This document shows, piece by piece, positions 20,161 to 30,576 of a stretch of 33,080 nucleotides of DNA (its first letter is position 1; every line of letters starts with the position of its first letter). The stretch comes from Candidatus Aminicenantota bacterium (GTDB lineage Bacteria; Acidobacteriota; Aminicenantia; UBA2199). The notes under the pieces are model-generated. The model worked only from the letters and a program-made list of their open reading frames with translations. It had not been told where the DNA came from and did no database searches. Both the position numbers and the translations under genes were made by a program. The stretch is taken from contig JALHTJ010000016.1 in assembly GCA_022865785.1 (NCBI GenBank), positions 1-33,080 of the forward strand. The letters are read 5' to 3'.

Positions 20161-20452
20161 ATGAACTATCGTGACGCGTAACGCGTGACGCGTGACGAGG
20201 GAAGAAAAAGACAAAGGCGAGGGACTATGGGCGATGGGCTTTGGGAAGACAGAGAATAGAAAACAAGGGAAATTCGGGTGTAGGGGCAGGCCCCCGTGCC
20301 TGCCCAAGGCCAGTCCGAATGTAGGGGCGCGTTTAAAACCCGCCCGGGATTTCGGCTGAAAAGTGTTTTTATTTAATACAATTGAATATCATTGATCTTT
20401 TTTCTCGTCACGCGTCACGCGTCACGAAAGATCATTCATTTATCGTTTTCTT
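20161..20452. repeat. Gene-free gap with terminal inverted heptad arrays and palindromes
   Basis: This 292-bp gap lies between convergent genes. A 7-nt array of GTGACGC type (20170-20199) is mirrored by an inverted array at 20404-20426; the two arms would pair over about 23 bp and enclose a 257-bp unit. Inside, from left to right, come a GGGAAGAAAAAG tail after the left arm and a second heptad-like tract of GGCGATG type (20216-20250). A hairpin follows with 8-bp stem GGGCAGGC/GCCTGCCC (20284-20305), then a near-perfect palindrome GGGCGCGTTT/AAACCCGCCC (20325-20345). An A/T-rich stretch completes the unit. GTAGGGGC occurs twice (20280 and 20321). No clear target-site duplication or coding potential is seen. 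Confidence 0.85.
20284..20305. repeat. Hairpin within GTAGGGGCAGG-type repeat
   Basis: GGGCAGGC and GCCTGCCC form a perfect 8-bp stem with the 6-nt loop CCCCGT. It may help end transcription of either convergent neighbour, but no T-run follows on either strand, so it is not called a terminator. Confidence 0.75.
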
Positions 20453-21181: not shown

Positions 21182-21210
21182 AGTATAAAAACATCGCAGG
21201 AATTTGTCAA
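21182..21210 (-). promoter_or_regulatory. Promoter of the LiaF-like gene
   Basis: On the minus strand a perfect TTGACA (21210-21205) and TATACT (21187-21182) are separated by 17 nt. The start is expected near 21175, leaving a short leader with GAGGAGG. The arm of the adjacent repeat ends 11 nt before the -35 box. Confidence 0.75.
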
Positions 21211-21221
21211 ATCAAAGAACT

Positions 21222-21420
21222 AGTGTCAGTGTCAGTGCCAGTGTCAGCAAATCCATAATCGATATATTGAAGTCATATTTTCTTGCTGTCACTGACACTG
21301 ACACTGTCACTCATATAGCGCTCAAGATTCTTACTGTCACTGACACTGACACTGTCACTCATATAGCGCTCAAGATTCTTACTGTCACTGACACTGACAC
21401 TGACACTGTCACTTATTCGC
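21222..21420. repeat. Hexamer repeat array with 48-bp tandem units and inverted arm
   Basis: On the plus strand a single array of AGTGTC hexamers (21222-21246) is followed by about 36 nt of unique sequence. Three arrays in the opposite orientation then begin at 21283, 21331 and 21379, exactly 48 nt apart. Each unit has hexamers of CTGACA type and the first two end in the same ATATAGCGCTCAAGATTC tail. The third array carries one extra hexamer, and its tail diverges. The forward array can pair with the nearest inverted array to form a long hairpin. Read on the minus strand, the order is three units, AAGAAAA tail, unique loop, inverted arm, promoter of the LiaF-like gene. The whole lies between two co-directional genes. 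Confidence 0.9.
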
Positions 21421-21427
21421 GTAATTT

Positions 21428-22849
21428 CTAACTGCCGATCTGGGTTTCGTCCTCGCGGCGGCGCCGGGCCATGGTAAAGCCGGTGCAGCCGTAGAGAACC
21501 AGCAGCAGCACCGAGAAGTAATTCATGAATGCGAAGGGCAGGAAGGCGGTCACCGGCACGCCCAGGATGCCGGAGATGTACACGCCGGCCATGCTCCAGG
21601 GGATCAACGGCACCATGATCGCCCCGGCTTCCTCGACGATGCGCGACAGGTTCTTGGCCGCCAGGTCCATTTTGCGGAAGGCCGGCGCCAGCAGCTCTCC
21701 CGGGATGAGCATGGCCAGGTAGGAACTGCCGGTGATCAGGGCCGTGGTCAGGGCCGTGACCACGGTGGTCAGGGTCAGGCTCCACACCCGGCGCGCCAGG
21801 CGCGTCACCCGCTCCAGCACCACGGCCAGCATGCCGGTTCGCTGCATGATGCCGCCGAAACTGAAGGCGGCCAGGGCGATGAGCAGCGTCTCCATCATGC
21901 TCATGATGCCGCCGCGCGAGATCAGGCGGTCGATGTCGGCCAGGCCGGTGTCGGCCGTGTAGCCTGTGCTCAGGAATCGCGCCAGCGAGACCAGCGTTGC
22001 CCGCTGCAGCCAGGCGGCCAATATGCCCGCGGTCGCGATCGAAAGCATCATGCCGGGGATGACCGGCTTCTTGGCCACGGCGAACCAGAACACGATCGCC
22101 AGCGGCAGCAGCAGCACGATGTGGAAAGTGAAATGGCCGCTCAGGCCGGCCCTGATCATGCCGATCTGCGGGGAGCTGATGCCGGCGCGGCCGTAGCCCA
22201 GGCCCATGAAAAAATAGACGGCCAGGCCCGCCGTCCAGGCCGGCACGGCCGACCAGAGCATGTGGCGGATGTTGTCGAAGAGGTTCGACCCGGCCGCGAT
22301 CGGGGCCAGGTTGGTGATGTCGGAAAAGGGCGAGAGCTTGTCGCCGAAGTAGGCTCCGGCCACGATCGCCCCGGCCGCCGGTCCCAGCGGCACCTGCAGC
22401 GCCTGGGCGATGCCGATGAAAGCCACACCGATGGTGCCGATTGTACCCCATGAGGTGCCGGTGGCCAGCGATGTCAGGCTGCACACCGCGCAGGCGGTGA
22501 CCAGGAAGAACCGCGGCGAGACGAGTTTGAGGCCGTAATACAGGAGCATGGGGATCGTGCCGCTGGCCATCCAGGCGGCGATGAGCATGCCGACGCAGAG
22601 CATGATCAGGATCGCCGGCACGGCCTTGCGCACGCTTTCGACGATTCCCTGCTGCATCTCCTCCCAGGTATAGCCCAGGCGCCAGCCGACCAGGCCGGCG
22701 CTCACGGCGGCGGCAATGAGCAGCACCTGGGCCTGAAGGTGGAAAATGCCATAGCCGATGCCCAGCAGCAGTGCCATTGCAGCCAGGGGCAGGCAGGCCT
22801 GCAGCAGCCCGGGCTTGCGGTGCTTGTTCGTTGCGTTCGTTTCGGTCAT
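21428..22849 (-). CDS. nhaC: NhaC-family Na+/H+ antiporter
   Basis: This 473-residue polytopic membrane protein has about eleven or twelve hydrophobic helices. It carries the family block SLATGTSWGTIGTIGVAFIG, and then GAYFGDKLSPFSDITNLAP, both diagnostic of NhaC-type antiporters. A second conserved region, MMETLLIALAAFSFGGIMQR, precedes ITGSSYLAMLIPGELL. The expected role is sodium extrusion coupled to proton uptake at the inner membrane; some relatives exchange malate and lactate or other solutes, so substrate is not certain. A GAGGAG site lies 6 nt before ATG 22849. A weak promoter (TTGCAA at 22894-22889 with TAAATG, 17-nt spacer) may serve it, though it would leave too short a leader. Repeat arrays lie on both sides of the gene. 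Confidence 0.9.
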   Translation of the reverse strand: MTETNATNKHRKPGLLQACLPLAAMALLLGIGYGIFHLQAQVLLIAAAVSAGLVGWRLGYTWEEMQQGIVESVRKAVPAILIMLCVGMLIAAWMASGTIPMLLYYGLKLVSPRFFLVTACAVCSLTSLATGTSWGTIGTIGVAFIGIAQALQVPLGPAAGAIVAGAYFGDKLSPFSDITNLAPIAAGSNLFDNIRHMLWSAVPAWTAGLAVYFFMGLGYGRAGISSPQIGMIRAGLSGHFTFHIVLLLPLAIVFWFAVAKKPVIPGMMLSIATAGILAAWLQRATLVSLARFLSTGYTADTGLADIDRLISRGGIMSMMETLLIALAAFSFGGIMQRTGMLAVVLERVTRLARRVWSLTLTTVVTALTTALITGSSYLAMLIPGELLAPAFRKMDLAAKNLSRIVEEAGAIMVPLIPWSMAGVYISGILGVPVTAFLPFAFMNYFSVLLLVLYGCTGFTMARRRREDETQIGS

Positions 22850-22900: not shown

Positions 22901-23011
22901 AACTTGGTGTGAGGTGCAAGGTGTAAGGTGTAAGGCAAGAAAAAGCCAATTGCTATTTTCTTAATGCCTTCTCTCACCTTAAACCCTATACCCTGCGCCT
23001 TACACCGAGTT
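22901..23011. repeat. Inverted heptad-repeat pair between nhaC and rmuC
   Basis: The left arm is a heptad array with units GGTGTGA, GGTGCAA, GGTGTAA, GGTGTAA (22906-22933), followed by GGCAAGAAAA. After about 29 nt of unique sequence, the complement of the same pattern runs from 22973 to 23011, more degenerate. The arms would pair imperfectly over roughly 38 bp. The right arm ends 8 nt before the rmuC -35 box. Confidence 0.85.
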
Positions 23012-30313: not shown

Positions 30314-30322
30314 ATTATAACA
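30314..30322 (-). promoter_or_regulatory. Extended -10 promoter of the deaminase gene
   Basis: On the minus strand TGTTATAAT is a complete TGn-TATAAT extended -10 element. It ends 8 nt before ATG 30305, which fits leaderless transcription. The -35 region falls inside the neighbouring hexamer repeat array and has no consensus match. Confidence 0.6.
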
Positions 30323-30330
30323 TAGTAAAG

Positions 30331-30542
30331 TGACAGTGACAGTGTCAGTGACAGCAAGAAAACAAATCGAAATCCAGTGACAGTGTCAGTGACAGCAAGA
30401 AAACAAATCGAAATCCAATGGCCGTGTCAGTGACAGCAAGAAAACAAATCGAAATCCAGTGACAGTGTCAGTGACAGAAATAAAATGGAACGGCAATATT
30501 TCGCTTTTGGTCCAGCTAACACTGACACTGACACTTACACTT
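30331..30542. repeat. Hexamer repeat array with 41-bp tandem units and inverted arm
   Basis: Units begin at 30335, 30376, 30417 and 30458, exactly 41 nt apart. The first three each consist of hexamers of AGTGAC/AGTGTC type, then CAGCAAGAAAA and an ACAAATCGAAATCC tail; the third has three substitutions near its start. The fourth is cut after its array. After about 38 nt of unique sequence an inverted arm (30515-30542, TAACACTGACACTGAC type) could pair with a forward array over about 20 bp with three mismatches. The array abuts the deaminase promoter on the left, and the inverted arm ends 5 nt before the -35 box of the small beta-grasp gene on the right. Not CRISPR: the intervening segments are identical. 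Confidence 0.9.
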
Positions 30543-30547
30543 ATTTC

Positions 30548-30576
30548 TTGACTTTGTTTTTGCACTTCACTAAAAT
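30548..30576 (+). promoter_or_regulatory. Promoter of the small beta-grasp/nucleotidase pair
   Basis: TTGACT (30548-30553) and TAAAAT (30571-30576) have a 17-nt spacer and each matches 5 of 6 consensus bases. The start is expected near 30583, just ahead of AAAGGAG (30588-30594). Confidence 0.7.

Follow-up and report, generated by a model that had tools for sequence, protein, structure and literature searches.

The window, i.e. the whole stretch of DNA analysed here, comprises 33,080 nucleotides of a 3.05-Mb draft MAG of a Candidatus Aminicenantota bacterium, in the following called the host genome. It contains two repeat loci (Table 1), of which locus 1 is neighboured by a LiaF-like gene and a Na+/H+ antiporter gene, and locus 2 by a deaminase-domain gene, a 5'-nucleotidase gene and an ORF of 72 aa for which Pfam gave no match. 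In an initial annotation both loci had been described as tandem arrays, with units of 48 and 41 bp and an exact core of 23 nt in common. The arrays are real (TRF: 21280-21407, 2.7 copies, 97 % matches; 30334-30485, 3.7 copies), the core consists of the 22-mer AGTGTCAGTGACAGCAAGAAAA and one further identical base at each site, and the hexamer described as added in the third unit of locus 1 is present. An arm on the opposite strand had been missed at both places. Because this arm stands across each array, both loci are inverted pairs.

The element is an inverted pair of the form (AGTGNY)~4-AG-CAAG... loop ...CTTG-CT-(RNCACT)~4, and the core is one arm together with the arm/loop junction (CAAGAAA). 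Core plus private tail, the make-up proposed before, has therefore to be replaced by two hexamer arms that face each other across a loop. Units of 48 and 41 bp are secondary, namely locus-private tandem duplications of one arm and its tail, and such private duplications of 35, 41 or 48 bp are found at several loci of the host genome. Single-stranded folding of the nearest arm pair gives a hairpin with a dG of -22.7 and a z of -6.4 at locus 1 (21222-21311) and with a z of -4.1 at locus 2 (30458-30543).

Table 1 Features of the two repeat loci and of related elements in the window
Feature	Position	Strand	Remark
Promoter-like TTGACA-17-TATACT of the LiaF-like gene, 11 bp outside the left arm of locus 1	21182..21210	-	11/12 matches
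Locus 1, left arm: AGTGTC AGTGTC AGTGCC AGTGTC AG	21222..21247	+	4 hexamers
Locus 1, loop of 38 bp with the junction TTTTCTTG at its end (other strand: CAAGAAAA)	21248..21285		
Locus 1, right arm copy 1	21286..21311	-	4 hexamers
Locus 1, tandem duplication with a unit of 48 bp: 22-bp tail, right arm copy 2 (21334-21359), 22-bp tail	21312..21381	-	TRF
Locus 1, right arm copy 3	21382..21413	-	5 hexamers (one added)
Locus 2, left arm copy 1	30329..30354	+	4 hexamers
Locus 2, tandem duplication of arm and CAAGAAAACAAATCGAAATCC tail with a unit of 41 bp: arms 30376-30395 and 30458-30477, degenerate arm between	30355..30477	+	TRF
Locus 2, loop of 38 bp	30478..30515		
Locus 2, right arm CTAACACTGACACTGACACTTACACT	30516..30541	-	4 hexamers; absent from the initial annotation
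Promoter-like TTGACT-17-TAAAAT just outside the right arm of locus 2	30548..30576	+	
Core 22-mer AGTGTCAGTGACAGCAAGAAAA	21278-21299	-	exact match
Core 22-mer	30341-30362	+	exact match
Core 22-mer	30382-30403	+	exact match
Core 22-mer	30423-30444		1 mismatch
Related element, 7-mer word: (CGTRACG)x4 at 20170-20197 facing (CGTYACG)x3 at 20406-20426	20170..20426		
Related element, 7-mer word: GGTGTAA array facing TTAAACCCTATACCC	22906..22993		hairpin z -4.1

In total, the window contains at least four inverted pairs built from three words. The inverted pair of the third word, GGTGTAA, is flanked by the antiporter gene and an rmuC gene; RmuC of E. coli has been linked to limiting inversions at short inverted repeats. 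In the loop of the CGTRACG pair there is a hairpin-like sequence, GTAGGGGC...GCCCGCCC (about 20273-20343), that resembles REP-type palindromes. The antiporter gene itself (21428-22849) is missing at the same place in a 94%-identical sister (G007, L206), in which the flanking LiaF-like and rmuC genes are adjacent and free of repeats. At locus 2, the -35-like hexamer CTGTCA of a promoter candidate of the deaminase gene (30314-30342, minus strand) lies inside the hexamer array and, therefore, the element may supply part of the promoter there.

The initial annotation had also suggested a dispersed element that re-amplifies locally, and had proposed a search for the core in the whole genome and in sister genomes. 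In the host genome the pattern AGTGNCAGTGNCAGTGNCAG has 43 matches, which represent 16 loci, versus one match for the reversed control pattern, and the 22-mer has 14 matches at up to two mismatches versus none for the control; the core is thus beyond chance or low complexity. It was also found in 12 of 15 congeneric genomes, with up to 118 matches per genome, and in one of 44 genomes of other genera covered by the same search; all of these genomes are draft MAGs, in which repeats break assemblies and binning may be impure. Since 16 loci and most congeners carry the core, it is neither confined to the two places in the window nor absent from sister genomes, and dispersal with local amplification holds as the interpretation.

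This dispersal runs through one genus. Three consecutive AGTGWC units were found in five of 396 sampled Acidobacteriota genomes, all five in the host genus, and carriers of the core are nearly all Candidatus Aminicenantes or Acidobacteriota MAGs. Isolated matches exist in Pelobacter (one arm with a CAAGAA junction and an apparent fragment of the other side) as well as in Thermodesulfovibrio and an Actinoplanes record (single arrays), and there was no match in plasmids or phages. Most of the word matches are intergenic (206 of 223).

Nearly every locus of the host genome consists of left arm, loop and right arm, and the minimal element measures about 85-110 bp. Among all loci examined, arms at most 350 bp apart stand in left-right order in 25 cases and in right-left order in none, and across eight word families the facing order is 86:0. 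Beyond 350 bp the orientation is random (left-right 9, right-left 10), which speaks against composite or autonomous elements between distant arms of the loci examined. The distance between the facing arms is variable, with loops of 33-245 bp which are mostly private to each copy. Four hexamers were counted in 193 of 362 arms and three in 88. The AG-CAAG junction is common to unlinked copies; its commonest inner forms are CAAGA (150), CAGGA (35) and CAAGG (19), and several loci have unlike ends with CAAGAAA on one side and CAAGGC on the other. The arms are the outer ends of the element, since in several unlinked copies of genome G015 the homology stops at the outermost AGTGTC. Thus, as in MITEs, terminal inverted repeats end a dispersed element.

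The letters of the word AGTGNY differ strongly in their variability. The first four columns are fixed (A 209/209, G 209/209, T 196/197, G 184/184; one exception in about 800 letters), column 5 contains T97/A50/G29/C1 and column 6 T87/C84/A9/G1. In 7-mer arrays, which were detected by self-similarity alone, substitutions also gather in one or two columns (449 versus 201+-10 expected). Column 5 of AGTGNY pairs between the arms in 24 of 108 cases (22 %), below the 36-39 % expected (p 0.0004; 29 pairs, some of which may share descent), column 6 matches between the arms, and the fixed columns pair in 108 of 108 cases by construction of the search. Because column 5 pairs less than by chance, the hairpin has a mismatch at about every sixth base pair. 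A second word with such anti-pairing is TTCGANG (0/17, p 0.006). No significant anti-pairing was detected in arms of GTRACGC (p 0.08), ACGGTNN, GTTCCAN, AGACGTN and TAGTGR or in the AGTGN-Y test with both columns merged, so that among the words tested it is limited to column 5 of AGTGNY and to TTCGANG. In an element retained in two sister species (L061/L343) the left arm is unchanged and the 79-bp loop has two changes; the right arm has five substitutions, all in variable columns, versus 13 in 405 positions elsewhere.

The same geometry exists with many other words, among them GTRACGC, ACGGTNN, TTCGANG, GTTCCAN, AAGTGAC, AGACGTN and CCAAATTCCAA. In 813 kb of the genus the facing order of these other-word families is 45:0. 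As the word patterns were picked after examples had been seen, it was decided post hoc which arm of a family is called left or right, but the consistency within a family is not post hoc. With the same patterns a single array was found in other families of the class (547 kb), and strict 7-mer arrays number 127 in 764 kb of the genus versus two in those 547 kb. The CCAAATTCC word extends to one other genus of the family and to one further family of the class. It is common for elements to be nested in the manner of shells. When inverted pairs were sought over all arrays by strict matching of words, the result carried little information (12 inverted versus 5.6 expected, G015), because the words vary too much, and family-wise patterns were therefore used. 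In another genus of the same family (L064 in G032) one AGTGAC-type arm lies beside long ATCTACCC/ATCTACTC and TTATTCG arrays, which suggests the same kind of element with other words.

Replacement by other words in the same geometry is rapid between sister species. The flanks of host elements were located in two of them (G009 and G007) at an identity of roughly 87-98 % mostly and 78-86 % at a few flanks. In 19 bridged comparisons the sister site had a different word in 11 cases, the same family in six and no element in two, the calls of same family or other word being made by eye on aligned stretches. The six sites with the same family include one collapsed remnant and one element retained at its right end only; one of the two sites without an element is near-empty and the other has a REP-like hairpin. 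The number of units changes as well (L057, seven units versus three in G009). In congeners, the places of both window loci just outside the promoter are occupied by (CGTGACG)n, (GGGAAGA)n, (AAAGGA)n, (GGCGTAA)n, (AAGTGAC)n or nothing, and G012 and G006 have an AGTG-type array at the same place as locus 2. In the locus 2 orthologue of G008 (L229) the DNA upstream of the deaminase gene carries an AAAGGC-type array and, after it, an inserted ORF that was seen in no other congener.

The repeats are probably small, non-autonomous mobile elements, dispersed in intergenic DNA, recognised in trans via their fixed letters and subject to fast turnover. A putative trans-acting enzyme or protein would read the fixed columns of the tandem words, and such an enzyme might copy or insert the element into tolerant intergenic DNA. 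Tolerant sites would be those outside a promoter or inside the loop of an older element, and insertion into loops would give rise to nested shells. A perfect palindrome would be unstable, and mismatches in the variable column may prevent the hairpin from becoming one. Slippage or unequal recombination between hexamers would later produce the units of 48 and 41 bp. Against mobility counts that a clean empty site was encountered just once (L060 in G007), that 36 pairs had no target-site duplication (direct repeats of 2-9 bp did not exceed those in shuffled flanks), and that no autonomous relative was enclosed by arms among the loci examined, arms more than 350 bp apart being randomly oriented.

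Alternatively, a nucleoid protein or a global regulator could bind the elements as paired sites, with the word as recognition site, four sites per arm and the arms looped together. The fixed columns imply sequence recognition, elements lie near promoter-like sites in the window, and there is a precedent in Geobacter with a suggestion of IHF/HU (PMC2700814). However, regulatory sites predict no fast replacement by other words, and the word is retained at just six of 19 sister sites; many different words reside in one genome, and divergent, convergent and co-directional gene gaps are used without significant preference (p 0.16). Regulator sites are thus an unlikely explanation. Ordinary simple-sequence repeats, formed by slippage and foldback (hairpin-primed) copying without an enzyme of their own, would agree with the visible gains and losses of units and hexamers (21382-21413; L057) and with the locus-private 35-, 41- and 48-bp duplications. 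The mobile element is favoured because neutral slippage predicts neither anti-pairing nor arms of four units nor variation limited to certain columns: under slippage every column would become homogeneous, yet variation is confined to one or two, and arm length peaks at four units. Foldback copying would match the arms at the variable column, where they anti-match instead, and the AG-CAAG junction common to unlinked copies argues against both processes. The arrays do not consist of homogeneous units varying by slippage as in phase-variable simple-sequence repeats, although unit number does change, and this origin appears quite improbable.

A function as RNA hairpin, i.e. as transcription terminator, attenuator or small RNA, would fit the good folding of both window loci but is very improbable: locus 1 has no terminator-like site and locus 2 one weak one, no Rfam match above the gathering score was obtained, and the elements are located upstream of promoter-like sites with no excess between convergent genes. 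A terminator or promoter-element role, judged by gene orientation, was rejected as no bias was found. Finally, a RAYT (Y1 tyrosine) transposase could move the arms as REPs or REPINs; their arrangement in inverted pairs and their spread between genes are REPIN-like, and Y1 transposases occur in the genus. This explanation is largely refuted, since the arms have no GTAG motif, AGTG arms are found at none of 14 Y1-transposase loci, and the Y1 copy number (0-8) does not track the number of elements and is similar in genera without them. A Y1/RAYT transposase as mover was rejected for lack of association with the arms. Genome G015 contains two 97%-identical copies of a 0.94-kb Y1-transposase element (L235:8598-9530 and L236:2395-3332), whose own inverted ends (GGTCTTACATTATTA) are unrelated to the hexamer arms.

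So far reports on tandem heptamer-like repeats have been piecemeal; in several phyla such repeats were described as microsatellites, as quadruplexes or as sites for regulators, and no mechanism was given. In the genus studied here many words occur together, and its sister species are sufficiently close for a site-by-site comparison. The constant feature is the geometry, i.e. facing four-unit arms with fixed and variable letters, whereas turnover is very fast and arm pairing is regularly imperfect. Together these properties make mobility versus regulation testable, and they point to a putative enzyme or binding protein. In addition, such arrays break assemblies and create spurious ORFs (e.g. 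21204-21431 in the window).

Units of 6-8 nt, about four per site, and facing pairs on opposite strands place the element among the paired degenerate tandem-oligomer sites of the Xanthomonas/Geobacter type. In Xanthomonas, (GGGANTN)n/GGGAATC heptamers are intergenic, consist mostly of four units and are conserved at positions 1-4 and 6 (Rehm et al. 2015, PMC4692102); there are about 70-75 'convergent' plus/minus-strand pairs per genome, and 83 % of the repeats are in the same gene context between two species (PMC4692102). The Aminicenantes arms resemble them in that they are intergenic facing pairs of tandem degenerate words, with some positions fixed and others variable and typically with four units. 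In contrast to the G-quadruplex heptamer, AGTGNY is a hexamer without a G-tract and does not qualify as a quadruplex, and in contrast to the 83 % positional conservation the family is retained at six of 19 sister sites, with many words per genome. Paired tandem octa- and heptanucleotide sites of Geobacter metallireducens, classes 1-3, with the units GTTGCTYN, TCTCCGTS[Y] and MTYCTGA and 4-5 tandem degenerate units per site, were read as regulator-binding sites (Aklujkar et al. 2009, PMC2700814). They share the opposite-strand pairs, the variable distance and the tandem degenerate units, but differ in their words and in the interpretation as regulator sites; replacement at orthologous sites and arm anti-pairing were not found reported in this account (PMC2700814).

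The TAACTGA heptamers of Beggiatoaceae and the cyanobacterial STRR heptamers are likewise short, intergenic, lineage-restricted and patchy tandem words (MacGregor 2015, PMC4679880), but they form direct arrays of one word, whereas the Aminicenantes arms are inverted pairs. In the open-access accounts PMC4692102, PMC2700814 and PMC4679880 no report was found of the hexamer word, of the many co-resident words, of replacement between species or of arm anti-pairing. Compared with REPINs and MITEs as portrayed in two further accounts (PMC3116915, PMC2229807), the element is also small, dispersed, intergenic and non-coding with inverted ends, but has no GTAG/RAYT link, no target-site duplication and arms made of tandem words; unlike in a classical MITE, the loops of different copies are mostly private. 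The architecture is common to the Xanthomonas and Geobacter precedents, and the Aminicenantes element is read as a new, fast-turnover variant which is probably non-autonomous and mobile. More tentatively, the Xanthomonas, Geobacter and Aminicenantes repeats might all be members of one broad class of bacterial mobile DNA, defined by geometry instead of sequence, in which two arms face each other and each has about four degenerate words of 6-8 letters. Its putative machinery would read the fixed letters, need regularly mismatched hairpins and, over no more than the divergence between sister species, exchange one word family for another at a given intergenic site.
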